Shown in pieces: positions 42,000 through 61,209 of a DNA stretch of 64,000 nucleotides. The DNA is taken from NCBI GenBank assembly GCA_947259175.1, contig CAMYKW010000009.1, positions 85,559-149,558 on the forward strand, read 5' to 3'. The notes under the pieces were generated by a model. The model searched no databases and was not told where the DNA came from. It saw only the letters and a program-made list of their open reading frames with translations. The stretch's first letter is position 1. Each line of letters opens with the position of its first letter. Origin of the DNA: an uncultured Gammaproteobacteria bacterium (GTDB lineage Bacteria; Pseudomonadota; Gammaproteobacteria; Arenicellales; JAANXG01). Made by a program: the position numbers and the translations under genes.

Positions 42000-44975
42000 A
42001 TGTCTACGAAACAACTGTTGTTTGGCGGTTACTGGGGGTTGATTTTACGTAACGTGCGATGCGGCTTGACGGCGCTCGCCGGGGCGATTCTCTTGTTGGC
42101 TGCGTTTGAGCATGCCGCGGCCGAATTAGCGGATGGCCGCACGCTGCGTTCATGGATCGAGGCGATGAAGGTCTTCGAGCGGGGTCCATTCAAACATATT
42201 CGCTGGTTCTGCAAAGACGGCACGGTATTGCCGCCCCAGCCGTACGGCTGTGTCAATCACGGTGGCGGCTCCCAGCATGGTGAGTGGACGGACCGCGTCA
42301 AGCAACTGCGTGCCGCGGGCTATGCGGTTGCCAATATATTCGCCGATCTGGATGTCGGCGCGTTTGTTCTCGACCGCCGCCATCCTGATCTGGTCAATCA
42401 GATGATAATTGAGCAGTTTCTGATTTCCGCTGACGACGGCTGGATATTCCGCAAAGCGCGTTTCTACCGCGGCGCGCTGCAGGAAGAGGGTGAGCGCAAA
42501 GGCGCGCGGCGCCTGTTGCTCACACTCGCCCGGGACCGATCCTGGCTCACGCGCCGCTACCTGCCGTTTCGCACCGCTGTGGGCTTGCTGAATCACGGCG
42601 AGGAAACCCGATCGGTGTCCGAGATACGTCAGCTGTCCGGGTCCCTCGCGGATCGCGACGCCGGTTTCGTCCTGTTGCGGAACAAGATTCACATCAGACC
42701 CGACTTGAGCGATGCCGCCGCGGTACGCAATTACCTGTCGCGACACAAGGATTCGGCCCTGATCACGGACTATCAGCGCCTTGCGGCTCTCATCGAGTCG
42801 GTGCACGCGGGTCCCTCGGCGGCACAGCTGCTGCAACGTTTGGCGCAGAAGGCGGATGTGGGCGGCCGCCTGGCCGGCGTATTGCGGCGCGGCGCAACCG
42901 CGTTGTCGGCGAGGGAGAGCCCCGAACAACGGTTGGCAACCACCGCTGAGTTGTTGTCCGCGCTCAGATCGGAGACGCCGGCGCTGTCCGACGCCGGAAT
43001 GATACTGGCGGTCACCGGCGCCAGCCATGCGCTGGAGATCGACCACTTTGTGGCCGCCGCCGCCCTGCGCGATGAGCTTGCCGGCGCAACGCTCACCCGG
43101 CGGCTCGCATGGCTGCGGATGGGCATCACGGCCGGTTATGGCACCGGACTATTCAGCGCCAGGCAACGCGATGCGTTATTCGCCGCCCTGAACGAGCTCG
43201 GCGGAAAGACGAGCGTCGACCTTGGGTCCTACAAGCGCATACTAGACTATCTCGCGCTGGCGCCCGCGTGGAGCGGCGCATGGCAGCGGGCCCATTTTCA
43301 GGAGTCTGTAAGCAAGCTCATGACCATCGAACCGCGTGCCGGCTTGTTCCTTCAGGACCAACTACGCGCCAGCCCCCTGTTTTTTTACAGTTACGTGATC
43401 GACGGTTTGCTCCGGGACGCCAACCGGCTGGCCGGCGTAAGCCATGAATTGTTCGGCGAACCGATTGGCGCCGGCATGCGCGGCCTCAATCCGGGTCTGG
43501 CACGGGGCTGGTTGCGAGCCTCACCGCCTGATCCCGGGAGTTCTTACGACGCAGACGGTATTTACGTGTTGCCGGAAACCGTGTCCGATCTGCCGCCGGT
43601 GGCGGGCATACTCACGGCGGGTGAAGGCAATCCCCTGTCCCATGTCCAGCTCCTGGCGCGTAATCTCGGTATCCCCAATGTGGTGATCGACGATGCGCTG
43701 GTGCCCCGGCTGCGTCAATGGGACGGCCACGAGGTGGTGTTGGCGGTTTCATCCCAGGGAGTGGTGCGACTCAGCCGCGCGTCCGCTGTCCCCGATACCG
43801 TGTTCGCTAACGGCGAAGCCGATTCCGAGGTGCTGATTCGCCCCGACGTCAACAAACTCGAACTGGGCCGCAAGGACCTTATTATGCTCAGCTCCCTGCG
43901 CGCCGATGACTCCGGCCGCAGCGTCGGGCCCAAGGCGGCCAGGCTGGGTGAGTTGTCGTATCGCTATCCCGATGCCGTCACCGACGGTTTGGTCATCCCG
44001 TTCGGGGTGTTCAATGAGCTGCTCAGCCGGCTTTACCGAGACAGTGCAGAGTCGGTATTTCAATGGATGGTGGGACAATACCGCGCCATCGAAAAGCTGC
44101 CGCGCGGGTCCGAGGCGCGTGACCGCGCGGCTGAGAATTTCAGGCAAGGCTTGCATCACTGGATAGCGCACGCCGATCCGGGCGCCGGTTTTCGCGCACG
44201 GCTGCGCACCGCAATGAAACAGGCATTTGGTAGCGACGGTAGCTATGGCGTGTTCGTGCGCAGTGACACCAATGTCGAGGATCTGCCCGGATTCACCGGC
44301 GCCGGATTGAATCTCACAGTGGCCAATGTGATTGGATTCGATAACGTCGTCCAGGCGATTTCGCGGGTTTGGGCATCACCGTTCACCAGGCGCGCATTCG
44401 CATGGCGGCAATCACGCATGGCGCAGCCGGAGCATGTGTATCCAGCGGTGCTGCTGTTGCGCAGCGTACCGGTGGACAAGTCGGGGGTGCTCGTAACCCA
44501 GGACCTCGATAGCGGTGACCCGAATTGGTTTTCCGTGGCCGCCAATGAGGGAGTCGGCGGCGCGGTGGACGGTCAGGCGGCGGAGTCTCTGCGGGTTCAT
44601 ATAGACAGCGGTGCGGTAAGGCTCATGGCCCAGGCGACCGCGGCGACCAGGAAGGCGATCAGTCCCGGGGGCGGCATGGATGAGGTGCCGGTGAGCGGCG
44701 CCGATCATGTCCTCACTGCCGCTGATATCGCCCAGTTGATCGAGCTCGTCAACGCGCTGCCGCGGCGGTTTCCAGCGCTCGTGGATGCGAACGGCAAATC
44801 GGCCCCGGCCGATGTAGAATTCGGCTTCGTCGGCAGGAGACTGGTGTTATTTCAGATCCGGCCTTTTCTCGAAAGCAGGCAGGTCTATACCAACCACTAC
44901 CTGAGGTCCTTGGATGCTGCTCTGCGGCGGTTGGATCAGGTTGTCGTGCATTTGCACCGGGTTCCCCGGGAGTAG
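42000..44975 (+). CDS. PEP/pyruvate-binding (PPDK/PEP-synthase-like) protein with N-terminal hydrophobic export-like segment
   Basis: Hydrophobic LTALAGAILLLAAFEHAAAELADG; PEP-mobile domain GILTAGEGNPLSHVQLLARNLGIPNVV; PPDK_N-like GVFVRSDTNVEDLPGFTGAGLNLTVANV. Confidence 0.7.
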   Translation: MSTKQLLFGGYWGLILRNVRCGLTALAGAILLLAAFEHAAAELADGRTLRSWIEAMKVFERGPFKHIRWFCKDGTVLPPQPYGCVNHGGGSQHGEWTDRVKQLRAAGYAVANIFADLDVGAFVLDRRHPDLVNQMIIEQFLISADDGWIFRKARFYRGALQEEGERKGARRLLLTLARDRSWLTRRYLPFRTAVGLLNHGEETRSVSEIRQLSGSLADRDAGFVLLRNKIHIRPDLSDAAAVRNYLSRHKDSALITDYQRLAALIESVHAGPSAAQLLQRLAQKADVGGRLAGVLRRGATALSARESPEQRLATTAELLSALRSETPALSDAGMILAVTGASHALEIDHFVAAAALRDELAGATLTRRLAWLRMGITAGYGTGLFSARQRDALFAALNELGGKTSVDLGSYKRILDYLALAPAWSGAWQRAHFQESVSKLMTIEPRAGLFLQDQLRASPLFFYSYVIDGLLRDANRLAGVSHELFGEPIGAGMRGLNPGLARGWLRASPPDPGSSYDADGIYVLPETVSDLPPVAGILTAGEGNPLSHVQLLARNLGIPNVVIDDALVPRLRQWDGHEVVLAVSSQGVVRLSRASAVPDTVFANGEADSEVLIRPDVNKLELGRKDLIMLSSLRADDSGRSVGPKAARLGELSYRYPDAVTDGLVIPFGVFNELLSRLYRDSAESVFQWMVGQYRAIEKLPRGSEARDRAAENFRQGLHHWIAHADPGAGFRARLRTAMKQAFGSDGSYGVFVRSDTNVEDLPGFTGAGLNLTVANVIGFDNVVQAISRVWASPFTRRAFAWRQSRMAQPEHVYPAVLLLRSVPVDKSGVLVTQDLDSGDPNWFSVAANEGVGGAVDGQAAESLRVHIDSGAVRLMAQATAATRKAISPGGGMDEVPVSGADHVLTAADIAQLIELVNALPRRFPALVDANGKSAPADVEFGFVGRRLVLFQIRPFLESRQVYTNHYLRSLDAALRRLDQVVVHLHRVPRE

Positions 44976-44979
44976 CTAC

Positions 44980-46242
44980 ATGCGTGCGCTTATCATTAAC
45001 GTGATCTTGGGTTTGTGCTGGTTGTCGCCTGTGGTTGCCGCCGCCTATCCGATCTACGGCAGCGAATCCACCGACATACGCCGCCTGGAACATGCACGCC
45101 TGGCTCACGAAGGCAAGGCGGCTGGGGGTCGGCGCCGGCCGGGGGAGTTGTTGCCCCTGGAACAGGTGGACCTGAGATTGCGGCACCGTCCCGAATTGCG
45201 GATTCCGTCGCCGGACGCGGATTTTACCGCCCGCGTAGTGGACCTGCTCGGGGCTGAGGCGGACCGTTACGGAATTGCGGTGCTCGATCTATCCAATCTC
45301 GATCGACCCAGGTATGCCGAGCACAACGGCGAAACCATGCACAACCCGGGCAGCGTCGGTAAGATCGTCGTCATCACCGCTTTGTTTCAGGCGTTGGCCG
45401 ATGTTTACCGCGACGATTACGCATCACGGCGTAAAGTGTTGCGCGATACGCGGGTGACCGCAGACGATTTCATCATTCACGACAGCCATAAGGTGAGTTT
45501 CTGGGATCCGTCGGCGCAACGATTGACGCGCCGGCCGATTCAGCTCGGCGACCGGGCCTCCCTGTGGGAGTTTGCCGATTGGATGTTGTCGGCGAGTTCT
45601 AATGCGGCCGCCAGTACGGTGATCAAACAGGCGATGCTTCTGGTCTATTTCGGGCGCGACTACCCGGTGGACGACGCACGCGGAGTACGGTTTTTCGACA
45701 ATACCCCCCGTGCCGAACTGGGCGCCTTGCTGGTCAGGACCCTGCAGAACCCGCTGCAACGCAGTGGTTTGGACTTGAGCCGCCTCCGCCAGGGCAGTTT
45801 TTTCACCGCGACCGGTAAACGCAAAGTCCCGGGCACCAGCAGTCATACCAACAGCCGCGAATTGATGAATTACCTGTTACGGCTGGAGCAAGGCCGGATC
45901 GTCGACGAATTCTCCAGCCGCGAGATCAAGCGCCTGTTGTACATGACCGAGCGCCGCATCCGTTTTGCGTCGTCGCCCGCGTTGAATGATGCGGCGGTGT
46001 ATTTTAAATCCGGCTCTTTATATAAGTGTCGACCCGAGTCGGGATTCGTATGCCGCAAATATCACGGCAACAAGCAAAACCTCATGCATTCGGTGGCAAT
46101 TGTCGAATCGCCGGCTGCGGATCGGCGCCTGTACTACTTTGTCGCCCTGGTATCGAATGTATTGCGCAAGAATTCGGCGGTGGAACATCAAACGCTGGCG
46201 ACCCGCATTCACCGTCTCATCGAGGCGGCGCATGCCAAATAG
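44980..46242 (+). CDS. Exported serine hydrolase (class A beta-lactamase-like fold)
   Basis: Signal MRALIINVILGLCWLSPVVAAAYPI; SxxK-like NPGSVGKIVVITALFQAL; SSNAAASTVIKQ; C-terminal KSGSLYKC. Confidence 0.7.
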   Translation: MRALIINVILGLCWLSPVVAAAYPIYGSESTDIRRLEHARLAHEGKAAGGRRRPGELLPLEQVDLRLRHRPELRIPSPDADFTARVVDLLGAEADRYGIAVLDLSNLDRPRYAEHNGETMHNPGSVGKIVVITALFQALADVYRDDYASRRKVLRDTRVTADDFIIHDSHKVSFWDPSAQRLTRRPIQLGDRASLWEFADWMLSASSNAAASTVIKQAMLLVYFGRDYPVDDARGVRFFDNTPRAELGALLVRTLQNPLQRSGLDLSRLRQGSFFTATGKRKVPGTSSHTNSRELMNYLLRLEQGRIVDEFSSREIKRLLYMTERRIRFASSPALNDAAVYFKSGSLYKCRPESGFVCRKYHGNKQNLMHSVAIVESPAADRRLYYFVALVSNVLRKNSAVEHQTLATRIHRLIEAAHAK

Positions 46243-46248
46243 CGCTAC

Positions 46249-47089
46249 TCAAGGCGCCGCAGCTTGAGCGACCGAGGTGGGGACGATGAGTTCGTGCAGA
46301 CGCTGGATAAGGGTGGACAACCATCGCGAGCCTGCGGGATGCTCGACCAGGCCCACGGCGATATACTTGTGTTTGCCGGCTTCGACGATGGCGCTGTCGG
46401 CGTGCCACTTGCGCCATGAACCGGATTTACGGTAGATGCGAAGGCCGGGGTATTTCTCCAGACCCTTGACGAACTTGTGGCGGATACCGGGTTTGCCGAG
46501 CATGGCTTTCATTTGCCGCGATAAATCGGGACGCAACAGGCGCCCGGACTCGAGGAGGTAATAAAAGCGCGCCGTCTGTAACGCCGTCGCGCCGTGGGAC
46601 AGGTTGTGCAAAGGATCCCGTTGGTAAGCCGCCGATCGGCCGTATTCCTTGCCGACCCACAATCCACCATTGACCGCCGGGTCGTAAAGACGAAACCTTT
46701 CCGACATCAGGATGTCGATCAGTTGTCGTTTGCCGACGCGGTTCAGCATCCGGGTTGCTTCGGAGTTGGAAGAAACGCGTATCATCCGGGTGAGAGACTT
46801 TTTGTTGTCAGCGGTTAGATCCAAATTGCCGCGCTCGATTTGCACGAACGCTCCCGGCGGCATAGCGTGGTTTATCGATGTCGGTGATGTCCACCAGCGC
46901 CAGGGCCAGCTTGCCATCGACGACGGCATCACGCAGGGCCGAGGTATCGATGCTGTCTTCGAGACCGCGCTGCAGCCGAGGGTCGAAGCTTTCGCGCAAC
47001 CGGGGATACTCGCCGGTGGTGGCGGCTAAAAGCTGGGCCGGCGCTGGCAACAGGCACACCAGCGCGATTATGATGCTGATACATCGCAT
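46249..47089 (-). pseudogene. Exported serine hydrolase with internal deletion/frameshift removing the SxxK region
   Basis: N-terminal ORF ends ...LALVDITDIDKPRYA; the homologous continuation GAFVQIERGNLDLTADNKKSLTRMIRVSSNSEATRML... is at +1. The segment aligned to the intact paralogue's SVGK motif is absent. Confidence 0.65.
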
Positions 47090-48592: not shown

Positions 48593-50233
48593 ATGGTGGA
48601 GCAATCTGGCTTGAGTGGATGTTGGGAACGCCTACGCATGGCCGACGTGTCGGCCAGCGCGGCGCTCGTCGTAATCCTCATTGCCCTGTACGCGCAAGCC
48701 GGACGTTTCGAGTTCATAATCCTTGACGACGCCGATTACGTCTACGAAAACACGATGGTGACCAACGGTCTGACCCTGGAGGGGGTCGCCTGGGCGTTCA
48801 CTTCATTTTACCCCAGCAACTGGCACCCGCTGACCTGGTTGTCCCATATGCTGGATGTGTCGCTGTTCGGGGTGGAGCCCGGCTGGCATCACCTGGTGAA
48901 TGTCTTCTTTCACGGCGTCAATACCTTGCTGGTGTATTTTTTCTTTCGCCTACTACTGGGCGAACTGTGGCCGGCCGTGTGGATCGCCGTTCTGTTCCTG
49001 GTTCATCCCTTGCACGTAGAGTCGGTGGCGTGGGTGGCCGAACGCAAGGATTTACTGTCTGCGTTGTTTTTTCTCATCGTGCTGCACTGCTACCGGTGCT
49101 ACGTCCAACGAACCACCTGGGCTCGCTATGGCCTCGTATTTTCGTTCTTTGTGTTAGCCGCCCTGTCCAAGGCGACCGCGGTTACCCTGCCTTTGGTCCT
49201 GTTGCTGCTCGACTACTGGCCATTTGATCGCTTGGCAAATCCATCCACTGTGCCGCGGCCGCTGCGACGCTACGGCCGTTTTGGCTTGCTGGTGGAAAAG
49301 ATCCCGCTGTTTTTTGTCAGCGCCGGATTGAGTTTGATGACCATAGCCGCGGGGAGCGACGCGCTGCTGTCGGCAGACACCACGCCGTTTTCCGAGCGGA
49401 TCATGAATGCGGTGGTTTCCTATGCCGTCTACTTGAAGCAATTGTTCGTACCCGTGGATCTGGCGGCCTTTTATCCACTTCGTCGCATCGACTTTGTCCG
49501 TGAATTCCTGCTGGCGCTGTTGGTAATTGTCTCGGTCAGTGTGGTTGCCGTTTACCTGCACCGCTCGCGGCGGTACGTGTTAATGGGTTGGTTATGGTTC
49601 GTGCTGATGTTGGTGCCGGTAATCGGGATCGTGCAGATCAGCACCCAGGCGCATGCGGATCGTTTCGTCTATCTCCCTTCGATTGGAATCTTTCTTATCG
49701 TTGCGCTGAGCATGCCGCGGCCCGGCACCAGGTTTTTCCGCCATGCTTTTTTCGCCGCATCGGCTTATATGGCGTTGTTGTTTTTTGTGGCGTTCTTACA
49801 GATTGGTTATTGGAGGAACGATAATATCCTGTTCCACCGGGCCATTGACGTGACCAGGAACAATTATGTCGCCCACGTGAATCTGGCCGCCGACTACACG
49901 AAGCGGGGCATGTATCCGCAAGCGGAGCGCTATGCGGCTAAGGCCTTGGCGATGAAACGTGATCGATATCCCGCCTATTTGTCACTGGGTAATATACGCT
50001 TGGGCCAAGGGAATTACTCGGAGGCGGAGACTTATTACCGGCGTGCCTGGCAGATAGCGAGACACAACGAGAGCGTGCTCAACAACCTGGGTATTGCGCT
50101 TGCCAAACAAGGCCGCGAGCGGGAAGCGCTCGATTTTTTCAATCGCGCCCTGGAAATAGAACCCGATATGCTCGAGGCAAAGCGTAACCTTGCGCGTTAC
50201 TCCGTACTTAGCGGAGACGAATCAGCGCGGTAG
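48593..50233 (+). CDS. Membrane O-glycosyltransferase-like protein with C-terminal TPRs (TMTC-like)
   Basis: NWHPLTWLSHMLDVSLFGVEPGWHHLVNVFFHGVNTLLVYFFFR...HPLHVESVAWVAERKDLLSALFF, followed by C-terminal TPR units. Confidence 0.75.
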   Translation: MVEQSGLSGCWERLRMADVSASAALVVILIALYAQAGRFEFIILDDADYVYENTMVTNGLTLEGVAWAFTSFYPSNWHPLTWLSHMLDVSLFGVEPGWHHLVNVFFHGVNTLLVYFFFRLLLGELWPAVWIAVLFLVHPLHVESVAWVAERKDLLSALFFLIVLHCYRCYVQRTTWARYGLVFSFFVLAALSKATAVTLPLVLLLLDYWPFDRLANPSTVPRPLRRYGRFGLLVEKIPLFFVSAGLSLMTIAAGSDALLSADTTPFSERIMNAVVSYAVYLKQLFVPVDLAAFYPLRRIDFVREFLLALLVIVSVSVVAVYLHRSRRYVLMGWLWFVLMLVPVIGIVQISTQAHADRFVYLPSIGIFLIVALSMPRPGTRFFRHAFFAASAYMALLFFVAFLQIGYWRNDNILFHRAIDVTRNNYVAHVNLAADYTKRGMYPQAERYAAKALAMKRDRYPAYLSLGNIRLGQGNYSEAETYYRRAWQIARHNESVLNNLGIALAKQGREREALDFFNRALEIEPDMLEAKRNLARYSVLSGDESAR

Positions 50234-50247
50234 GCGGGCGCTGCCGG

Positions 50248-51471
50248 CTATCGGCTATTCTCGCCCGAACGCTCACCCCAGACTGCAAACACCGGATCCG
50301 AATCGAGAAGTCGACCGTAATACTTGTCATCTTCGGGCCGTGGCCAGCCGACCCAGGACTCGGTCCCGAGTGCGGTGAACGTTTCGCTGCAGCGAAAATA
50401 ATCCAGCACCAGGCCCATGCGTTCAAATGGATGCAACCGGCTCCACAGGCGGATCGCCTTGGGGGGAAACCAGCGGTCGGAGAAAGTCACCACGAATCGT
50501 CCCCCGGGGCGCAGCACCCGCGCCACCTCGGCAAATACCTGATAGGGCTGGGTGAGGTACTCCACCGATACGGTACAAACGGCGACATCGAACTCGGCGT
50601 TTTCCCACGGCAGTCGCGGCGTCCGGTTCAGGTCATGGACTATATAGTCGTGCAGCTCGGGATTGGCCGCGAGTTCTGCCCGGTTCATGCCCAGTCCCGT
50701 GGTTGTAACCGACGATGGAACACCGTCCAGGTGCGACACCCAACTGCTCATTAGATCCAGTACGCGGTCACCGGGCTGGACGACGCGCCGATACACGCGA
50801 TTGATGAACTGCCGCGCCTGGCTGTCGATGTGCTGGACCATGCGCGGCTGAGCATAAAATACCTCGTCGTCCGCAGTGTCCTCGCGCGCAAAGTTGTCCG
50901 CCTGCCCGTAGTCCACGCCGCCGGTCGGCAGCGGGCACTGCATCCCGGGTCCGCCTGCGGTGATGTCGGCCACGATGTCGTGACAGCTGCCGCCACGCTC
51001 CTCCTTAACGCCCAGCCGTTCACCGATTCTTCCGCCGACGGTGAGCGGGTAGCCCGCCAGCGGATGCCCAAGATCGACCGCGACGCGGTCGGCATCGACG
51101 CTTAGCACGCGGAAGGGCTCGAGTTCCTGGCTGTAGACGGTGCCCGCGCCATTGACCGGCGCCAGCACGCCGCGCGGGTAGAATCGCCCGCTGAACGGTC
51201 CGTGCAGGCGCCGCCGCTGGAAGGCCTGCTGGACCGTGGCGCCGGACAACTCGCAATGGTGAGCCGATTCGCTGACCGGGATGGCGTCGCCGGGCGCGAT
51301 CGGCACCTCCACCAGCCCGCCGCTCTCGTCCTGCAGGCGTTCGCCCAGGTCGCCGGGCATGAAGTCGCGCCACGGATTGAGCTTGGGGAAATAATGCCAG
51401 TCGCGATGGGTGGCGTTGCCGCTGCGCCAGCGGACGAAAAACTCGGCGCTGGCAGGGGTCGTGGTGTGCAT
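50248..51471 (-). CDS. Fusion of FKBP/SlyD-type peptidyl-prolyl isomerase-like domain and class I SAM methyltransferase
   Basis: GAGTVYSQELEPFRVLSVDADRVAVDLGHPLAGYPLTV (SlyD-like), then VLDLMSSWVSHLD...LPWENAEFDVAVCTVSVEYLTQPYQVFAEVARVLRPGGRFVVTFS. Confidence 0.75.
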   Translation of the reverse strand: MHTTTPASAEFFVRWRSGNATHRDWHYFPKLNPWRDFMPGDLGERLQDESGGLVEVPIAPGDAIPVSESAHHCELSGATVQQAFQRRRLHGPFSGRFYPRGVLAPVNGAGTVYSQELEPFRVLSVDADRVAVDLGHPLAGYPLTVGGRIGERLGVKEERGGSCHDIVADITAGGPGMQCPLPTGGVDYGQADNFAREDTADDEVFYAQPRMVQHIDSQARQFINRVYRRVVQPGDRVLDLMSSWVSHLDGVPSSVTTTGLGMNRAELAANPELHDYIVHDLNRTPRLPWENAEFDVAVCTVSVEYLTQPYQVFAEVARVLRPGGRFVVTFSDRWFPPKAIRLWSRLHPFERMGLVLDYFRCSETFTALGTESWVGWPRPEDDKYYGRLLDSDPVFAVWGERSGENSR

Positions 51472-51525
51472 GAGGGGTCTCCGAGATCGTGGTTTATGGC
51501 AGCCAATCAAGCAATAATAAATCAT

Positions 51526-51570
51526 TTGACAATAGCTATACAAGTAATGTATAAGTTTTGTATAACTAAC
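51526..51570. promoter_or_regulatory. Divergent promoter/operator with 11-bp direct repeats (CarH/LitR-type architecture)
   Basis: TATACAAGTAA (51537), TGTATAAGTTT (51548) and TGTATAACTAA (51559) start exactly 11 bp apart; TTGACAATAGC (51526) is a degenerate fourth. Overlaps TTGACA-N18-TATAAG. Confidence 0.65.
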
Positions 51571-51587
51571 TGTGCGACAGTTCCAGC

Positions 51588-52481
51588 ATGGCTGAAAGCG
51601 GCTATTTTCCGATCGGCAGCGTGTCACGCCTCACCGGTGTGAATCCCGTCACCTTGCGTGCCTGGGAACGTCGCTATGGGCTGATCAAACCGATGCGCAC
51701 GCCCAAGGGTCATCGCCTGTATACCCCCGCCGATATAGAGATGATCCGCGAGGTGATGCGATTAGTGGGCGAAGGCGTACCGGTGAGCCAGGTCCGGGGG
51801 TTGCTGGGGCCGACACCCGCTGCTGCACAGGGGGCCGCGGGTCCGCAACTCTGGAAGCAATACCGCGACGACATGGCGGACGCGATCACCCGCTTCGACG
51901 AGGCGAATCTGGACGCGTTTTACCAGGAGGCGATGGCGCATCATCCGGTGGACGTGGTCACCAAACGGTTGCTGATGCCGCTGCTCGAGGCGCTCGGCGA
52001 GCGTTGGGACCGCACCGACGGTGGCATTGCCGAGGAGCATTTTTTCGGTGTGTTCATGCGCAATAAGCTGGGCGCTCGTTTTCATCACCGGTCCCATCAC
52101 CGCCGCGGCCCGTGCCTGCTCGCCGCCTGCCTGCCGGGGGAGCACCACGAACTCGGTCTGTTGTTGCTGGCCCTGGCGGCGCACGATCACGGTTACCGCA
52201 TCGTCCTGCTCGGGGCGGATATGCCGCTGGCGCAAATTCCCCATGTGCGCCGGCGCATACGCATCGATGCGGTGATGCTTTCGAGTTCCGTCGACCCGCC
52301 GGAGGGAATTCTGGAACAAGATCTGCCCGCACTCGTCTCCGCGGTGGAGGTGCCGGTATTCGTCGGCGGTCAAACGTCGATGCGTCATCGCCAGTGCATC
52401 GAGCGTGGCGGCGCTCACGCCGTCGGTGACGAGCTCGCCGCCGGAATGGCGTTGATCGGCGACACCCTGTCCGTGCATTGA
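51588..52481 (+). CDS. CarH/LitR-like MerR regulator with B12-binding domain (candidate photoreceptor)
   Basis: MerR HTH FPIGSVSRLTGVNPVTLRAWERRYGLIKPMRTPKGHRLYT; Wx9EH motif W-DRTDGGIAE-EH; B12 motif ExHxxG in GEHHELGLLLLALAAHDHGYRIVLLGADMPL. Confidence 0.85.
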   Translation: MAESGYFPIGSVSRLTGVNPVTLRAWERRYGLIKPMRTPKGHRLYTPADIEMIREVMRLVGEGVPVSQVRGLLGPTPAAAQGAAGPQLWKQYRDDMADAITRFDEANLDAFYQEAMAHHPVDVVTKRLLMPLLEALGERWDRTDGGIAEEHFFGVFMRNKLGARFHHRSHHRRGPCLLAACLPGEHHELGLLLLALAAHDHGYRIVLLGADMPLAQIPHVRRRIRIDAVMLSSSVDPPEGILEQDLPALVSAVEVPVFVGGQTSMRHRQCIERGGAHAVGDELAAGMALIGDTLSVH

Positions 52482-52641
52482 GTATTGCCGAGTGGCTTGC
52501 GGCTCGGCATATCAGGGTGGCGCGCGTGAACGGCTCGTGAACGGCGCGCGCGGTGATCGTCACAAAGCGGCGACGCCGCGGTGCGTACCATGCCGAGGAT
52601 AAACTGTGAGTATTGAAAACTAGATTAGACGGAGTAGTGAT

Positions 52642-53691
52642 ATGACGACTGCGACTCAACTGGCTCTTGACTGGACCGAGCAGGGACGCATGCCGGATGC
52701 GTTGATCCGCGCCGGCATCCGCCGGCTGCTGCGCACGCGGTTGAGTGAGATACGCGCCGACGACTGTGAGGCGATGGAAGATGCCAAACGCCAGCATATT
52801 GCCGCTATGGACGACGCGCCAATCGCGTTGTTGACCGATCGGGCGAACGAACAACACTATGAGGTACCCGCCGAGTTCTTCACCCAGGTGCTCGGCCCGC
52901 GCTATAAATACAGCTGCTGCGTTTGGCCGCAAGGGGTGACGGGACTCGACCACGCGGAGGCTTTGGCCTTGGAGGCCACCTGTCAAAGGGCGGGCATCGA
53001 TGACGGACAACACATACTGGACCTGGGTTGCGGTTGGGGCTCGCTGAGCCTGTGGATGGCGCATCACTACCCGGGCAGCCGCATTACCGCGGTATCCAAT
53101 TCCAGCTCTCAGGGTGATTTCGTGCGCCGGCAGGCTGAGCGGCGTGGTTACCACAACCTTGAGGTGATTACCTGTGACATGAATCGGTTTCGGCCCGAGC
53201 AACGCTTCGACCATGTGGTATCCGTGGAAATGTTCGAGCACATGCGTAACTGGCGTGCACTGTTCGACCGGATACACCAATGGTTGCTTCCGGAAGGTCG
53301 ATTTTTCATGCACATTTTCTGTCACCGGCAGGTCCCCTATTTATTCGTGGATCACGGCGTACACGATTGGATGAGCCGGCATTTTTTCAGTGGGGGGATG
53401 ATGCCCAGTGACGATCTGCCGCTGCGATTTCAGAGCAAGCTTCGCCTCATCGATCAGTGGCGCTGGAATGGCCGCCACTATCAAAAGACGGCCGACGCCT
53501 GGTTGGGCAACATGGACGCGCGACGCGATATTCTGTGGCCGATACTCGAAACGGCTTATGGCCGCGAACAGGCAGGCTTATGGTGGACGCGATGGCGCAT
53601 CTTTTTCATGGCCTGCGCCGAATTGTTCGGCTATGACAACGGCCAACAATGGTGGGTGAGCCACTATCTATTCGCGCGTAATTCGTCATGA
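52642..53691 (+). CDS. CFA-synthase-like SAM-dependent methyltransferase
   Basis: HILDLGCGWGSLSLWMAHHYPGSRITAVSNSSSQGDFVRRQ; VVSVEMFEHMRNW. Confidence 0.8.
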   Translation: MTTATQLALDWTEQGRMPDALIRAGIRRLLRTRLSEIRADDCEAMEDAKRQHIAAMDDAPIALLTDRANEQHYEVPAEFFTQVLGPRYKYSCCVWPQGVTGLDHAEALALEATCQRAGIDDGQHILDLGCGWGSLSLWMAHHYPGSRITAVSNSSSQGDFVRRQAERRGYHNLEVITCDMNRFRPEQRFDHVVSVEMFEHMRNWRALFDRIHQWLLPEGRFFMHIFCHRQVPYLFVDHGVHDWMSRHFFSGGMMPSDDLPLRFQSKLRLIDQWRWNGRHYQKTADAWLGNMDARRDILWPILETAYGREQAGLWWTRWRIFFMACAELFGYDNGQQWWVSHYLFARNSS

Positions 53692-54233
53692 ACCTGTGGC
53701 TCAACATCGCCGCGTTCCAGGTCGGCTGGTTCGCATGTGTGCTCGGCGCCGCTCATGGGGCGCCGTGGGTGGGCGCAGCGGTGGCCGGCGGCGTGATCGG
53801 CTTGCACTTGATGCGCGCGCCGCAACCGCGGTATGAGCTGATGTTGATCCTGTTTGCAGCGGCGCTGGGACTGGTGGTCGATACGACGCTGATGAACGGC
53901 CGCTGGCTGGCGTTCGACTCGGGCTTTGTGGTCGCCGGCGCCGCCCCTTACTGGATGGTGGCCTTGTGGATGATTTTCGCCACCACACTCAACGTGTCAC
54001 TGGCATGGCTGAAAAACCGCCGCTGGCTGGCGAGCGGCTTGGGCGCGCTCGGCGGACCCTTGGCCTACTATTCCGGCGCCAAATTGGGTGCGGTGACCTT
54101 GGTGGATACCCCCGCGGCGCTTATCGCGATCGGCGCCGCCTGGGCGCTGGCGACGCCGCTGCTGCTGCTTGCCGCCCACCGTCTCAACGGCACGCTGATG
54201 CCGCGTGCGATCTCGGAGGCGAGCCGTGCTTGA
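53688..54233 (+). CDS. DUF2878-like small membrane protein
   Basis: Multi-TM, ATGA overlap with the preceding CFA-like gene; operon context. Confidence 0.65.
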   Translation: MNLWLNIAAFQVGWFACVLGAAHGAPWVGAAVAGGVIGLHLMRAPQPRYELMLILFAAALGLVVDTTLMNGRWLAFDSGFVVAGAAPYWMVALWMIFATTLNVSLAWLKNRRWLASGLGALGGPLAYYSGAKLGAVTLVDTPAALIAIGAAWALATPLLLLAAHRLNGTLMPRAISEASRA

Positions 54234-55029
54234 CTGGGCTGCGTGGCTGGCGGCGTTGGCCGTTGTATTGTTGTTTGCGGTCGCGGCCTGGTCGGTCAGC
54301 GTAGCCAAACGCGACGTCAGCATCGTCGACGGCTTATGGTCGTTGATGTTCCTGTTGGCGTTGCTGGCGTACGCGGGGCTCATTGCGGAGTGGGGTAGCC
54401 GCTGGCTGTTGGTGCTGGCGACGACGGTGGTCTGGTCGCTGCGCCTGTCGGTCTACATAACCTGGCGCAACTGGGGCGAGCCGGAAGATGCGCGCTATCA
54501 AGCTATTCGCCGCAACAATCAGCCGAATTTTGCATTCAAGAGCCTGTATCTCGTTTTCGCCCTGCAGGCGGTGCTGGCGTGGCTGATCGCGGCGCCGTTG
54601 CCGGCCGCCTTTACCGGGGCGGCGCCGCTGGGACCCTGGGACCTCGCCGGGGTGGTTGTTTGGCTGTTCGGCGTGACCTTCCAGGGGGTCGCTGACTGGC
54701 AGCTCGCGCGCTTCAAATCCGATCCGCGCAATCGGGGCAAAGTCATGGATCGCGGTCTGTGGCGCTATACGCGCCATCCCAACTACTTCGGTGAAGCTTG
54801 TGTATGGTGGGGTTTTTATTTGATCGCAGTGGGCGCCGGCGGCTGGTGGACGCTGTTCTCACCGCTGCTGATCACCTTCCTGCTGCTCAGGGTATCCGGC
54901 GTTACCCTGCTGGAAAAAGACATTCAGCAGCGGCGGCCCGGTTACCGGGAGTATCGCAACCGCACCAACGCCTTTATCCCCGGACCGCCCAGGTCGCCGG
55001 ACATCGCCCGATCGGAGGCGGCGCAATGA
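54226..55029 (+). CDS. DUF1295 (steroid 5-alpha-reductase-like) membrane protein
   Basis: GTG start after GGAGG. GVTFQGVADWQLARFKSDPRNRGKVMDRGLWRYTRHPNYFGEACVWWGFYLIA is typical of DUF1295. Confidence 0.8.
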   Translation: MLDWAAWLAALAVVLLFAVAAWSVSVAKRDVSIVDGLWSLMFLLALLAYAGLIAEWGSRWLLVLATTVVWSLRLSVYITWRNWGEPEDARYQAIRRNNQPNFAFKSLYLVFALQAVLAWLIAAPLPAAFTGAAPLGPWDLAGVVVWLFGVTFQGVADWQLARFKSDPRNRGKVMDRGLWRYTRHPNYFGEACVWWGFYLIAVGAGGWWTLFSPLLITFLLLRVSGVTLLEKDIQQRRPGYREYRNRTNAFIPGPPRSPDIARSEAAQ

Positions 55030-55658
55030 AGTCAGTTTTGTACTTTCTGCCGTGCGCGTTATTTCTGGGTCTCGCCCATGCGAGCGCTGGAACCGTCCAG
55101 GAGTGGCGGTTCGATGTATTACTCGACGATAAGAATATCGGCCACCACCATTTCCGGGTCGAGGATGCCGGCGAGCGGCGCCTGGTCAGCAGCGATGCCC
55201 AGTTTGACGTCAAATTTCTGTTCTTCAGCGCCTACCGGTATCAGCATCAAAACCGCGAGATCTGGAGCGGCGGCTGTCTCACAACACTGGCGTCGCGTAC
55301 CAACGACAACGGCCAGTCGCTGCGTGTCGAGGCGCAGCAATCACAGCAAAGCCTCGTCGTCGAGGCGAGCGGACAGCGCAGGCAGCTCAGCGGTTGCGTC
55401 AAGAGCTTTGCCTACTGGGATCCTTCGTTTCTTGACGCGGATAAACTGCTGAACGCGCAAACCGGCGAACACCTGGATGTCTCCGTCCAGAAACTGGATC
55501 TCGAACGGATTCAGGTGCGCGGGGAAACGATGCAAGCCCATCGCTACCGCCTGAGTGCCGGGGACATGACCATAGACGTCTGGTATTCGCCGCAACGTCA
55601 GTGGGTGGCGTTGGAGTCCAGGACCGGCGGTGGCCGTCTGCGCTATCGTATTCAATAA
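55026..55658 (+). CDS. Exported DUF6134-like protein
   Basis: Signal peptide; VQEWRFDVLLDDKNIGHHHFRVED...FDVKFLFFSAYRYQHQNREIW; ATGA overlap. Confidence 0.6.
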   Translation: MKSVLYFLPCALFLGLAHASAGTVQEWRFDVLLDDKNIGHHHFRVEDAGERRLVSSDAQFDVKFLFFSAYRYQHQNREIWSGGCLTTLASRTNDNGQSLRVEAQQSQQSLVVEASGQRRQLSGCVKSFAYWDPSFLDADKLLNAQTGEHLDVSVQKLDLERIQVRGETMQAHRYRLSAGDMTIDVWYSPQRQWVALESRTGGGRLRYRIQ

Positions 55659-55673
55659 AGAGTGCGCGCTGAA

Positions 55674-56324
55674 ATGACACTGCGAATGACTGTTACTTTA
55701 CTGGCCTTGTTGGTGGCTGGTTGTCAGACGGCGGCTCTGCAACCACTGCCCACCGTCGAGCGCGTCGAGCTGCCGCGCTTTATGGGGGACTGGTACGTCA
55801 TCGCGTCGATCCCCACGTACCTGGAGCGGCACGCGTACAACGCGGTGGAGTCCTACCGGCTCACCGACGCCGGTACTGTGGCGACTACCTTCCGCTATCG
55901 CAAAGGCGGTTTCCACGGCAAGGTGAAGCGCTACCACTTCACCGGTTACATAAAGGACGCGCAGAGCAACGCGGTGTGGGGTCTGCAGTTGATATGGCCA
56001 TTCAAGGCGGACTACCGGGTGATGTACCTGGCGCCCGATTACTCTACGACGATCATCGGCAGACTGAAGCGAGATTACGTGTGGATTATGGCGCGCAGCC
56101 CGAAGATCGAAGACGCCGAATATCAGCGCTTGGTACGGTTGATAGCCGCTGCGGGCTACGACACCGCGAAAATAGAAAAGGCGCGGCAACACTGGCCCGA
56201 GGCCACTCTGACCCACCCTGGCCCACGCTCGAGACTAACGGCGGTGATGCGCGTGATCCGGGATTTGAAGGCGATGACGCCGGTTGCTGGTTCCATCGAC
56301 CGCATTGTGGGGGGCGACGCATGA
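55674..56324 (+). CDS. Lipocalin-family lipoprotein
   Basis: Lipobox LLVAGC; PRFMGDWYVIASIPTYLERHAYNAVESYRL (GxW motif). Confidence 0.8.
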   Translation: MTLRMTVTLLALLVAGCQTAALQPLPTVERVELPRFMGDWYVIASIPTYLERHAYNAVESYRLTDAGTVATTFRYRKGGFHGKVKRYHFTGYIKDAQSNAVWGLQLIWPFKADYRVMYLAPDYSTTIIGRLKRDYVWIMARSPKIEDAEYQRLVRLIAAAGYDTAKIEKARQHWPEATLTHPGPRSRLTAVMRVIRDLKAMTPVAGSIDRIVGGDA

Positions 56325-57613
56325 CGGGCACGGCGAAGAAAATCGCAGTGATCGGCACCGGCATCGCCGGCAACGTGGTGGCGCGAACCCTGCATGGTGA
56401 CCACGACATCACCGTATTCGAGGCCAATGATTACGTCGGCGGGCACACGCACACCCACGATATCGAGTGCGGCGGTGCACGTTATGCCATCGACACTGGG
56501 TTTATCGTTTTCAACCATCGCACCTATCCCCACTTCAGGCGATTGCTGCGCGAGTTGGACGTCGCCGAGCAGGCGAGCGATATGAGTTTCAGCGTCAAGT
56601 GCGAGCGCAGCGATCTGGAATACAACGGCGCCGATCTGAACACGCTGTTCGCGCAGCGCAGGAATTTGGTGTCCCCGCGTTTTCATCGCATGCTGCGCGA
56701 TATCCTGCGTTTCAATCGCGAAGCCCCGGGCTTGTTGCTGACCGACGATGACACGCTGACCTTGGGGCAATATCTCAGCCGCCGCGGGTACGGCCGGATG
56801 TTTATCGACAAGTATTTGCTGCCGATGGGCGCGGCGGTGTGGTCCACCGATCCGGCCGGCATACGCGACTTTCCAGCTCGTTACTTCGTGCGCTTTTTTC
56901 ACAACCACGGCTTGTTGAGCGTGAATGATCACCCCCAGTGGTACGTGGTCAGCGGCGGATCGAGAACCTATGTCGACAGGCTGGTCGCGCCGTTCCGGGA
57001 TCGCATACGGCTCAACACGCCGGTCACCGGCGTCAGGCGCCAGGCCGACCGGGTGCTGGTCACTACCGCCACCGGTGAGACCTCGCGCTTCGATTACGCA
57101 TTCATCGCCACCCACAGTGATCAGGCGTTGCGCCTGTTGCAGGATCCGTCGCCGCTGGAGAGCGACGTACTGGCGGCGATTCCGTCCCAGCAAAACGACG
57201 CGGTGCTGCACACGGATGCATCGATACTGCCGCGCCAGCGCAGGGCATGGGCGGCGTGGAACTATCGCATCCCGCGCGAGCAAACCGCGCAGGTGTCGGT
57301 GACCTACAACATGAACATCCTGCAAGGCCTGGACGCCCCGGAGACGTTCTGCGTGACACTCAATGATCGCGATCGCATCGATCCGGCGCGCATCATCAAG
57401 CGCATGCCTTATACCCATCCGGTCTACACCCGTGCCGGGATCGCGGCCCAGGCCAAACATGGTGCGATCAACGGTGACCGCCGTACGTTCTTCTGCGGCG
57501 CCTACTGGGGTTTTGGATTCCACGAGGATGGTGTGGTGAGTGCACTCAACGCGCTCGAACATTTTCGCGACGAGTTGAACGATGAACAGTTGTCTTTACG
57601 TCGGGCAGGTTAA
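56321..57613 (+). CDS. FAD-dependent oxidoreductase of the CFA/DUF1365 cluster
   Basis: KIAVIGTGIAGNVVARTLHGDHDITVFEANDYVGGHTHT; ATGA overlap with lipocalin gene. Confidence 0.8.
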   Translation: MTGTAKKIAVIGTGIAGNVVARTLHGDHDITVFEANDYVGGHTHTHDIECGGARYAIDTGFIVFNHRTYPHFRRLLRELDVAEQASDMSFSVKCERSDLEYNGADLNTLFAQRRNLVSPRFHRMLRDILRFNREAPGLLLTDDDTLTLGQYLSRRGYGRMFIDKYLLPMGAAVWSTDPAGIRDFPARYFVRFFHNHGLLSVNDHPQWYVVSGGSRTYVDRLVAPFRDRIRLNTPVTGVRRQADRVLVTTATGETSRFDYAFIATHSDQALRLLQDPSPLESDVLAAIPSQQNDAVLHTDASILPRQRRAWAAWNYRIPREQTAQVSVTYNMNILQGLDAPETFCVTLNDRDRIDPARIIKRMPYTHPVYTRAGIAAQAKHGAINGDRRTFFCGAYWGFGFHEDGVVSALNALEHFRDELNDEQLSLRRAG

Positions 57614-58382
57614 GCACCGGCGCCGGCAGCCGGCGCGCCACGAGTTCGCGTACCGGCTGTTCATGCTGTATCTCGACCTGGATGAGGTTCCGCGGGTGTT
57701 TCAAGACTACTGGCTGTGGTCGACGGCGCGCGCCAATGTGGCGTGGTTCAGACGCTCCGATCATCTCGGCGATGCCCAGGTTCCGCTGAGCGACGCAGTG
57801 CGTGAACTGGTCGCCACCAGGACCGGGTTCCGCCCCCGCGGACCGATACGCCTGCTGACCCATCTGCGCTACTTTGGGTTCGGTTTCAATCCGGTTAGCT
57901 TTTACTATTGCTTTGACGCCGCCGGCGAGCGCGTCGAGACTATTGTCGCGGAAGTGAACAACACCCCATGGGGAGAACAGTACTGTTATGTGCTCGGTGG
58001 CGGCGACGCCGATCCGAGCGGCCGGCGGCGATTCCAGCCGCAGAAAAATTTTCACGTGTCGCCATTCATGCCGATGGAGATAGACTACGACTGGCGATTT
58101 TCCACCCCCGATGAACACCTGTTTGTACACATGCAGAGCCATCAGCAAGCCGACAGGATTTTCGACGCCACGCTCACTCTCGAGCGCCGGACGATTTCCA
58201 GCACCGTGCTGGTGAAGGCCCTGGCACAGTTTCCGCTGATGACCGTAAAGGTCGTCGCTGCGATTTATTATCAGGCGCTGCGCCTGTGGCTGAAGCGCGT
58301 TCCGTATTACGCCCACCCCGACAAGCTAGACTCAGTTACCAGCCCCGAGGAGTTGTCCCATGAAAGCCGTCGTCACCTCTGA
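57582..58382 (+). CDS. DUF1365 family protein
   Basis: LYVGQVKHRRRQPARHEFAYRLFMLYLDLDEV; LLTHLRYFGFGFNPVSFYYCFD; VAEVNNTPWGEQYCYVL. Confidence 0.85.
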   Translation: MNSCLYVGQVKHRRRQPARHEFAYRLFMLYLDLDEVPRVFQDYWLWSTARANVAWFRRSDHLGDAQVPLSDAVRELVATRTGFRPRGPIRLLTHLRYFGFGFNPVSFYYCFDAAGERVETIVAEVNNTPWGEQYCYVLGGGDADPSGRRRFQPQKNFHVSPFMPMEIDYDWRFSTPDEHLFVHMQSHQQADRIFDATLTLERRTISSTVLVKALAQFPLMTVKVVAAIYYQALRLWLKRVPYYAHPDKLDSVTSPEELSHESRRHL

Positions 58383-59655
58383 ACACAATGATTTCTCTAT
58401 GGAGAAGCCGGTCGGGTGGTTGGATCGCATCGCCAAGCGTGCGGTGTTGCGACGTCTGCGGGGTATGACCGAAGGCTCGCTGGTGATTAAGGACCAACAG
58501 GAAACCCACCATTTCGGCAATCGCGGAGGCGACGGACTCCATGCGACGATCTTCGTGCATCACCCGTTGTTTTACCGGCTGGTTGCATTCGACGGCACGA
58601 TCGGTGCGGGGGAGGCGTTCATGGCGGGACATTTCCAGTGCAGTGATCTTACCGCGGCGGTGCAGTTGTTGCTGCGCAACCGGAACGTGCTCGACGGCAT
58701 GGACGACCGCTCCTTGCGGATCAGTGCGCCGTTGCACAAGGTGTTCCACTGGTTGCATCGCAATACGCGCGGCGGCAGCCGGCGCAACATCGGCACCCAC
58801 TATGATCTGGGCAACGACTTTTTTGCGCTGTTTCTCGACGAAACAATGATGTATTCCAGTGCTGTTTATCCGCGGCCCGATGCCGTTCTCGAAGAGGCCG
58901 CGGTGACCAAACTGGATCACATCTGCCGCAAGTTGAATCTGACCCCGCAGGACCACGTATTGGAGATCGGCACCGGCTGGGGCGGGTTCGCCATCCATGC
59001 CGCGAGGAACTACGGCTGTCGGGTCACCACCACGACGATTTCCAGGCAACAGTATGAATACGCCAGAAAAAAAATTGATGCCGCGGGTCTGGCCGGCCGA
59101 ATCACTTTGTTGCTCTCGGATTACAGAGATCTTGCCGGCAGTTACGACAAGCTGGTATCGATTGAAATGATCGAGTCGATCGGTCATCAGTATCTGGATA
59201 CGTTTTTTGAAAAGTGCAGCGCGCTGTTGAAACCCTCGGGGATGCTGCTGCTGCAGGCCATCACCATTGCCGACCAACGCTACGAGGCCGCCAAACGTTC
59301 GGTGGACTTCATCCAACGATACATTTTTCCGGGTGGATTCCTTCCTTCGGTGTCCGTCATGGTCCAAGCGACGGCGCGGTCCACGGACATGCGCTTATTC
59401 CATCTCGAGGATATCGGCTATCACTACGCGACCACCTTGCACCATTGGCGTGAGCGTTTTACACAAAACCTTTCGAAGGTGCGTGGGCTCGGTTATTCGG
59501 AGACCTTCATCCGCATGTGGGAATTCTATTTTTGTTACTGCGAAGGGGGTTTTCTCGAGCGCGCCATCGGCAATGCGCAGTTGTTGCTGGTCAAGCCGGA
59601 CTGTCGGAGTCAGCCGATTACACCGCCCATGGCGGCCGGCGGCGTTAGCCAGTAA
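58360..59655 (+). CDS. Cyclopropane-fatty-acyl-phospholipid synthase family methyltransferase
   Basis: NIGTHYDLGNDFFALFLDETMMYSSAVYP; VLEIGTGWGGFAIHAARNYGCRVTTTTISRQQYEYA; VSIEMIESIGHQYL. Confidence 0.9.
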   Translation: MKAVVTSEHNDFSMEKPVGWLDRIAKRAVLRRLRGMTEGSLVIKDQQETHHFGNRGGDGLHATIFVHHPLFYRLVAFDGTIGAGEAFMAGHFQCSDLTAAVQLLLRNRNVLDGMDDRSLRISAPLHKVFHWLHRNTRGGSRRNIGTHYDLGNDFFALFLDETMMYSSAVYPRPDAVLEEAAVTKLDHICRKLNLTPQDHVLEIGTGWGGFAIHAARNYGCRVTTTTISRQQYEYARKKIDAAGLAGRITLLLSDYRDLAGSYDKLVSIEMIESIGHQYLDTFFEKCSALLKPSGMLLLQAITIADQRYEAAKRSVDFIQRYIFPGGFLPSVSVMVQATARSTDMRLFHLEDIGYHYATTLHHWRERFTQNLSKVRGLGYSETFIRMWEFYFCYCEGGFLERAIGNAQLLLVKPDCRSQPITPPMAAGGVSQ

Positions 59656-59698
59656 CCCTCAATTCATTTTGTGTCCTAACCTCGTGAGGATCTCAATC

Positions 59699-60343
59699 AT
59701 GGACCGTCATGTCATTACTTCTGTGATAATCGCCCTTGTTGTCAGTCTCCCCCTGGGAGCCGTTGCCGTTACCGCTGCGAACACGGCGACCGCGACGAAA
59801 TCGACACCGCAGCCGTTCGCCGGGACTGCGGAGTTGTCGAAGACTGCGCGCAACGACGTTTGCCCGGCGCACCTCAACCACGAATTCCGCAAACTGCACT
59901 CGCGGGAGATCGTCAACCTGTGCACCGCATTCGCCGGTAAACCGCTGTTGATCATCAACACCGCCAGTCACTGTGGCTTCACGCCCCAGTTCAAGGGACT
60001 GGAGGCGCTGCACCAGAAATACGGCGACCAAGGCTTGGTGGTGCTGGGTTTTTCCTCCAATGATTTTCGACAGGAGGCCGGTAACGAAGAAAAGGCGGCG
60101 AAGGTCTGTTACATCAATTACGGCGTGACGTTCACGATGCTGGCCCCGATCTCGGTGAAAGGCGAGGACGCCCATCCACTGTTCCAGGAGCTCGCCCGCC
60201 AATCCAGGGCGCCGAACTGGAATTTCAACAAGTATCTCGTGGAGCCGTCCGGCGCGGTGATCCAGCACTTCGGCAGCACCACCACTCCCGACTCGTCCCG
60301 GTTGATCGAGCGCATCGAAGGCTTACTGCCGACGAAATCTTGA
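59699..60343 (+). CDS. Exported glutathione-peroxidase-family protein
   Basis: IINTASHCGFTPQFKGLEALHQKYGDQGLVVLGFSSNDF; N-terminal hydrophobic signal-like segment. Confidence 0.85.
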   Translation: MDRHVITSVIIALVVSLPLGAVAVTAANTATATKSTPQPFAGTAELSKTARNDVCPAHLNHEFRKLHSREIVNLCTAFAGKPLLIINTASHCGFTPQFKGLEALHQKYGDQGLVVLGFSSNDFRQEAGNEEKAAKVCYINYGVTFTMLAPISVKGEDAHPLFQELARQSRAPNWNFNKYLVEPSGAVIQHFGSTTTPDSSRLIERIEGLLPTKS

Positions 60344-60401
60344 TTCCAGGCGCTGAGGCGGGCGGCGCCCGGCCCCCGGCCCCCGGCAGGTACCGGGTCT
60401 A

Positions 60402-60415
60402 TTGATGCAAATCAA
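60402..60415. promoter_or_regulatory. Perfect FNR/Anr-type box upstream of ompW
   Basis: TTGATGCAAATCAA exactly matches TTGAT-N4-ATCAA; 71 bp separate it from the ompW start codon. Confidence 0.65.
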
Positions 60416-60486
60416 TGAAAGCCGCACAACACTCGGTAACATTACACGGCGAATCTTGCACCGTAACCAAACTAAGGGCTCGTGTA

Positions 60487-61209
60487 ATGAACAACAGAAC
60501 CAAGTCCGTAATCGCGGCGACTGCACTGGTCAGTCTGGCTTCCATCCCGATGTTGGGTCACGCACTGGAACAGGGTGACTGGACCTTCCGCGCCGGGGCG
60601 ACCGGCATCTATCCCAAGGACACCGATAGCGATCCGGTGTCCACCGCCGCCACCGGTCCCATCGCCGGCACCGCCGTCGGTCCGGGCAGCGCCTGGTCGC
60701 TGGGTCTGACCATCGGCTATGCGATGACGGCCAACTGGGGGATAGAACTGCTTGCCGCCTGGCCGTTCAAACACGATATCGAGGCCAACGACACGCTGCG
60801 CACCACGCTCTCGGGGCTGGGCCTTGCCGGCACCGAGGTCATCGGCGAAGTCGAGCAGTTGCCGCCGACCTTGAGCGTGAATTACACCTTTCAGCCGGAT
60901 CAGCCCATGCGTCCGTATCTCGGCGCAGGCATCAACTACTGGACCACGACCGACGAGGAAGTCAAGGGCGATCTGGCCACCGCGGGCTACACCAACCTGG
61001 ATGTGGACAGCTCCTGGGGAATCGCGCTGCAGGCGGGCGTCGACTACGATCTCAGCGACCGCTTGTTCATTAACGGCAGCGTACGCTGGATCAACATCGA
61101 AACCGATGCGCGGGTAACCGGTACCGGCGGGGCGCTGGGTCCGATCACGGTCGACAATATCAAGCTCGATCCCTGGGTATTCAGCATATTCCTGGGCACC
61201 ACCTTCTAG
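60487..61209 (+). CDS. ompW: OmpW family outer membrane protein
   Basis: Signal peptide; GDWTFRAGATGIYPKD, GYAMTANWGIELLAAWPFKHDIE, LPPTLSVNYTF...RPYLGAGINYWTT, C-terminal aromatic LGTTF. Confidence 0.9.
   Translation: MNNRTKSVIAATALVSLASIPMLGHALEQGDWTFRAGATGIYPKDTDSDPVSTAATGPIAGTAVGPGSAWSLGLTIGYAMTANWGIELLAAWPFKHDIEANDTLRTTLSGLGLAGTEVIGEVEQLPPTLSVNYTFQPDQPMRPYLGAGINYWTTTDEEVKGDLATAGYTNLDVDSSWGIALQAGVDYDLSDRLFINGSVRWINIETDARVTGTGGALGPITVDNIKLDPWVFSIFLGTTF

Follow-up and report, generated by a model that had tools for sequence, protein, structure and literature searches.

The regulator gene and its product

A gene for a CarH-type regulator (51588..52481, + strand) lies, together with its promoter, a proposed operator and a row of codirectional lipid genes, in the whole 64-kb stretch of DNA that was analysed (the window). 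The ORF encodes 297 amino acids, and Pfam, fold search, motifs and residue mapping assigned to its product a MerR helix–turn–helix, a four-helix bundle and a Rossmann B12-binding domain, with MerR_1, MerR, B12-binding_2 and B12-binding each scoring above the Pfam cut-off. The nearest solved relatives were chains of Thermus CarH (E 4e-34, 30–33% identity), while the match to CtMerR was weaker (E 1e-12). The predicted structure had a mean pLDDT of 86; the top matches of a fold search with it were all Thermus thermophilus CarH (TtCarH), and CtMerR (8JBS) also ranked high.

The initial annotation, made from the sequence, had named a MerR helix–turn–helix, an exact Wx9EH motif and an ExHxxG motif in this ORF, and all three were found by Pfam and a residue check. 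Wx9EH corresponds to W140-DRTDGGIAE-E150H151, and the B12 motif is intact and reads E185xH187xxG190-x42-SxV-x24-GG. The combination of Wx9EH with the ExHx2G...SxV...GG motif is said to define CarH homologs (PMC8156234). The light-response signature GxxW, EH, GxxH and GxxxP (PMC11796333) was complete as well (G137xxW140, E150H151, G184xxH187 and G209xxxP213), its elements were nearly invariant across the clade of the regulator, and the recognition-helix residues RxWERRY were retained. Domain order, fold, Wx9EH, the lower axial His and RxWERRY are all shared with TtCarH (also LitR; PDB 5C8D/5C8E/5C8F). Since the score against NF052513, the NCBIfam equivalog for CarH proper, was 147.7 bits and the curated cut-off is 400 bits, we filed the regulator as class I LitR/CarH-type and not as a CarH ortholog.

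Tandem 11-bp repeats at the carH promoter

The carH promoter, read directly from the sequence, is of the sigma70-like form TTGACA-N18-TATAAG noted earlier (51526..51555, + strand; -35 at 51526-51531 and -10 at 51550-51555); a simple promoter scan passed over it, as the final base of TATAAG is not T. It is located inside a proposed CarH operator of four tandem 11-bp repeats (51522..51565, + strand), which in the CarH frame nnnnTnnACAn read, in order, TCATTTGACAA, TAGCTATACAA, GTAATGTATAA and GTTTTGTATAA. The first two repeats have the full consensus and the downstream two are imperfect, with ATA for ACA. The initial annotation had placed three repeats at exact 11-bp steps, and these were recovered at their positions (TATACAAGTAA at 51537, TGTATAAGTTT at 51548 and TGTATAACTAA at 51559). 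The fourth repeat that it described over the -35 is also present, but it is not degenerate, as had been thought, being a full-consensus T-TG-ACA; TAGCTATACAA is likewise full consensus in the nnnnTnnACAn frame. The -35 TTGACA is itself a perfect TnnACA within the first repeat, and the third and fourth repeats overlap the -10 TATAAG. CarH operators are described as three to five tandem 11-bp nnnnTnnACAn repeats that cover the -35 or the -10 (PMC9304148), and the predicted operator consists of two full and two imperfect repeats spanning both hexamers. The tandem 11-bp operator of TtCarH also overlaps the -35, with three repeats instead of four.

When the 116-bp intergenic region was shuffled 200,000 times, a three-repeat array arose once, and a scan for the repeat showed this array to be the sole one in the window and, as judged by pair overlap, in the 4.18-Mb genome. 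In an alignment of four orthologs (64–74% protein identity) the repeats proved conserved, with 26 of 44 operator bases invariant versus 5 of 73 in the flanks. The invariance was periodic, positions 1–6 of the 11-mer being mostly kept and positions 7–11 variable, and the -35 was kept in 4/4 orthologs. The carH gene is present in three of the 13 family genomes, each time with the promoter array, and overlapping pairs, from which a three-repeat array is built, occurred in the 13 genomes only at carH promoters.

The spacing was also examined in relatives. The upstream regions of 63 B12-type relatives contained 39 same-strand TGTAYA pairs at 11 bp, the next spacing gave 4 and shuffles gave none, whereas the pair spacing at the loci of B12-less relatives peaked at 18 bp. 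The footprinted sites of Pseudomonas class II LitR are TGTACA-N12-TGTACA (PMC9758184), so the 11-bp spacing, as opposed to 18 bp, marks the regulator as B12 type. The Pseudomonas proteins (PplR1, PmlR), which act with a short LOV protein, have a related helix–turn–helix and the same TGTACA core words, and they control by light a related phrB/ufaM cluster of photolyase and furan fatty acid genes, similar to the target here; they have no B12 motif, light being sensed by the LOV partner (PMC9758184). This related gene set, and the position of class II proteins inside the B12-bearing tree, would fit a regulator with a vestigial B12 domain whose light signal is supplied by another protein, for instance one of the LOV type. 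We regard that reading as highly improbable, given an intact, conserved B12 pocket and an operator period of 11 bp (N5 between core words). Overall, motifs, fold, operator conservation and spacing bear out the earlier proposal that a CarH/LitR regulator of the B12 type is encoded next to its own operator of 11-bp repeats, and the sequence argues strongly for a B12-dependent MerR protein of the CarH/class I LitR kind.

A wider regulon in this genome was considered and rejected. Apart from the carH array, the genome held just two operator-like pairs, both TRTAYA. The first lies downstream of an aspartokinase gene and the second between glyoxylate-carboligase-like and LysR-type genes; they were taken as chance because the reversed control pattern gave 2 matches against 4. 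The operator was absent at the photolyase locus of the host genome, and a search of Rfam over 50000-60500 detected neither a riboswitch nor any other RNA family. In other genomes, TGTAYA pairs at 11 bp were seen away from the carH promoter (at about +2250 in locus L050, +1725 in L070 and -500 in L023, relative to carH), which suggests, from the pattern of the motif, further operators in some genomes.

The light-state histidine is absent

In TtCarH, His132, which adjoins Trp131, is the upper cobalt ligand once the protein is lit (PMC10442372), and a His at this position is present in 'many CarH homologues' (PMC9304148). The residue after Trp in the regulator is Asp141. None of the 69 relatives that carry both motifs had His at the position of His132, and no His after Trp was found in the CarH-like matches from 399 Pseudomonadota genomes where the motif was readable. 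A second difference from TtCarH is the replacement of the interface residue Arg176 by His. Judged by these residues, the textbook bis-His switch is absent in the regulator, as it is in CtMerR. Since the His132 equivalent is absent both here and clade-wide, the light switch of TtCarH cannot be assumed for the regulator.

These observations are relevant to the possibility that the regulator reports B12 status, with AdoCbl causing repression, AdoCbl shortage or cobalamin damage causing derepression, and the lost upper His leaving little effect of light. The absence of the His from 69/69 relatives points in this direction, as does the TtCarH H132A variant, which mostly remains tetrameric after light (PMC10442372). 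However, CtMerR of Chloracidobacterium (PDB 8JBS/8JBT), a more distant relative with a MerR-linked AdoCbl domain, the light signature and Arg, where the regulator has Asp, at the upper-His position, still photolyses AdoCbl, and the Glu of its EH motif turns toward cobalt (PMC11796333). Loss of light sensing therefore does not follow from the missing His. The capping residues and the light signature are moreover nearly invariant in the clade, and photolyase genes repeatedly adjoin relatives, as a photolyase gene lies near carH in Thermus. On balance we consider a pure B12-status repressor quite unlikely and light sensing by the regulator likely, the latter from its associations and its signature.

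H166 and H167, which follow NKxGAR, and Cys181 are kept in 59, 66 and 64 of 69 proteobacterial relatives, respectively, and are absent from Thermus CarH. We rejected H166/H167 as a replacement cobalt ligand, since in the predicted structure their helix begins close to Glu150/His151 and they would sit at its other end.

A putative furan fatty acid operon follows carH

Downstream of carH, and on the same strand, are eight genes identified by their Pfam matches. The first encodes a CMAS-family methyltransferase similar to UfaM or cyclopropane synthase (52642..53691; PF02353, E 4.5e-38). It is followed by genes for a DUF2878 membrane protein (53688..54233; E 7e-42), a DUF1295/steroid-reductase-like membrane protein (54205..55029; E 2e-71), a DUF6134 protein (55026..55658, start ATG 55026; E 4e-54), a Blc-like lipocalin (55674..56324; E 5e-36), an enzyme of the FAD/NAD amine-oxidase fold that is a candidate UfaD-like protein (56318..57613; E 9e-24), a DUF1365 protein that is a candidate UfaO-like protein (57582..58382; E 5e-86) and a second CMAS-family methyltransferase, like cyclopropane synthase or UfaM (58360..59655; E 2e-86). 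A divergent gene with a methyltransferase domain (50248..51471, - strand; Methyltransf_11), whose promoter region abuts the operator, is retained in the same-genus loci L009 and L010 and is possibly also under operator control. Farther away, 46249-47089 (- strand) holds a probable serine hydrolase/beta-lactamase-like gene in two overlapping frames with a frameshifted look, next to a similar intact gene (44914-46242).

In Rhodobacter, methylated furan fatty acids, which protect the cell from singlet oxygen, are made by the methylase UfaM, the NAD/FAD desaturase-like UfaD, an NAD-FAD protein akin to phytoene desaturases, and UfaO, a DUF1365 protein (PMC7380195). The same combination of CMAS, FAD desaturase-like and DUF1365 proteins occurs here at the level of families, and on this ground the product of the operon 52642-59655 is probably furan fatty acids. 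The furan regulon of R. sphaeroides is controlled by ChrR/sigmaE (PMC7380195); ChrR was not found in the host genome, which rules out ChrR/sigmaE as the regulator of the lipid operon.

The same gene order after carH, at similar distances, was observed in about 20 loci of Gamma- and Betaproteobacteria, and a cultivable relative, Pseudomethylobacillus aquaticus (L063), has this arrangement. In other loci the lipid cluster runs on the other strand, or carH has a photolyase gene as its neighbour instead. Most carriers of the first lipid gene are without carH.

A conserved internal site and a two-component pair

The gap of 160 bp between carH and the operon contains a response-regulator-like site (52525..52563, + strand) made of CGTGAAC-N4-CGTGAAC followed by an inverted GTCAC. 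The site is conserved across the genus: it was found in three carH-bearing genomes, and also ahead of the first enzyme gene in two operons without carH, those of genomes G029 and G024. Copies lie at L009 9127 (-), L010 5253, L165 9218 (-) and L164 9041 and 9083. By its form the site is probably that of an OmpR-type response regulator. The same repeat, in the form TTCAC-N6-TTCAC, precedes a gene for a PhoB/OmpR-family response regulator in G028, G030 and G024, with an imperfect version in the host genome, and this co-occurrence would link the motif to the regulator. In the host genome that response regulator and its kinase adjoin a CryB-like gene and a photolyase gene; the row at L105 2872-9510 (G000:C43) reads Crp/Fnr-type regulator, response regulator, histidine kinase, CryB-like protein and photolyase. 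A paralogous two-component pair is located directly upstream of the lipid operon in G030 and at the second operon copy of G028, where carH is not present; between the paralogs the response regulator is 84–85% identical, and the G030 kinase copy carries stop codons.

Because a conserved site separates carH from the first enzyme gene, the lipid genes are probably under shared control, with CarH as one input among others. Most carriers of the first lipid gene have no carH, and the internal site is conserved, so the operon can do without CarH and its main control may lie elsewhere. Taken further, the conserved CGTGAA-N5-CGTGAA site, the 160-bp gap, the same-genus carH-less operon copies with the pair upstream and the paralog next to photolyase genes in the host genome could mean that a two-component response regulator acting at the internal site is the main control of the operon, while CarH regulates essentially only itself. 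We find this unlikely, as carH is directly upstream of the operon and codirectional with it in many Gamma- and Betaproteobacteria genomes, and in L016 a gap of about 40 bp separates the two without such a site. We take CarH and the two-component system to be alternative or joint regulators of the lipid operon.

Light exposure of the host

The host genome encodes a PduO-type cobalamin adenosyltransferase, which can supply AdoCbl, and two genes of the photolyase/cryptochrome family. No reaction-centre gene was found in it, so phototrophy of the host was ruled out. The description of the host as dark-living, made in the initial annotation, was not supported, given the two photolyase/cryptochrome-family genes. 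Being able to form AdoCbl and to carry out light-driven DNA repair, this non-phototrophic host is likely to be exposed to light occasionally. A search of viral contigs found no relative.

Discussion

The explanation that we favour, and consider probable as a whole, is that the regulator, a variant of the CarH/class I LitR theme, uses AdoCbl to repress a photo-oxidative lipid operon in the dark. In the dark and with AdoCbl bound, the regulator would assemble into an oligomer and occupy the four 11-bp repeats, which cover the -35 and the -10, so that RNA polymerase would be kept from transcribing carH and from reading on into the lipid genes. On exposure to light, or when AdoCbl is lost, the adenosyl group would go and the complex would come off the DNA. 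Once derepressed, the operon would yield modified membrane lipids, for which methylated furan fatty acids, scavengers of singlet oxygen, are the best candidates. With Asp in place of the His that caps cobalt in lit Thermus CarH, the regulator probably stabilises its light state by other means, one candidate being the conserved Glu150/His151 pair, as in CtMerR. A second input may enter at the internal promoter site, probably through an OmpR-type response regulator. The dark-repressor explanation is favoured by the order of carH and operon, which is conserved in many loci, by the photolyase genes that are often adjacent in others, and by an operator that matches the experimental CarH rule, including the -35 overlap, and is found in the family only with carH. 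It is weakened by the absence of His132, the replacement of Arg176 and the largely tetrameric state in which TtCarH H132A stays.

The new elements are the clade-wide lack of the light-state His, a lipid target, in place of the carotenoid genes of TtCarH, for a B12-type LitR, and the conserved second regulatory site. In the open-access literature searched, whose coverage is incomplete, we found no report of a B12-type LitR/CarH that controls furan fatty acid genes.

In a tree of 101 sequences (midpoint root), the B12-less LitRs of Pseudomonas, Halomonas and some Ectothiorhodospiraceae were placed inside the B12-bearing proteobacterial branch (support 95/92 for the 82-row branch and 93/47 for the B12-less group). 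This placement would fit B12-less LitRs that lost B12 binding while their operator spacing widened from 11 to 18 bp. We tentatively propose, at a little under even chances, a large proteobacterial branch of B12 photoreceptors that switch in light without the upper His and control membrane lipids of the furan fatty acid type, which scavenge singlet oxygen. A two-component system linked to photolyase would serve as a second regulator, in part interchangeable with the first, and the LOV-dependent class II LitRs of Pseudomonas would have arisen from within the branch with a change of spacing from 11 bp to 18 bp.

For CarH, the model B12 photoreceptor, the light switch is put down to the movement of a histidine onto cobalt. 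A clade that has all other signatures and the 11-bp operator, and never that His, offers a natural experiment on the need for this ligand. It would also link B12 light sensing to the protection of membrane lipids in non-phototrophs, rather than to carotenoids, and it suggests a route by which LOV-dependent LitRs could have evolved.
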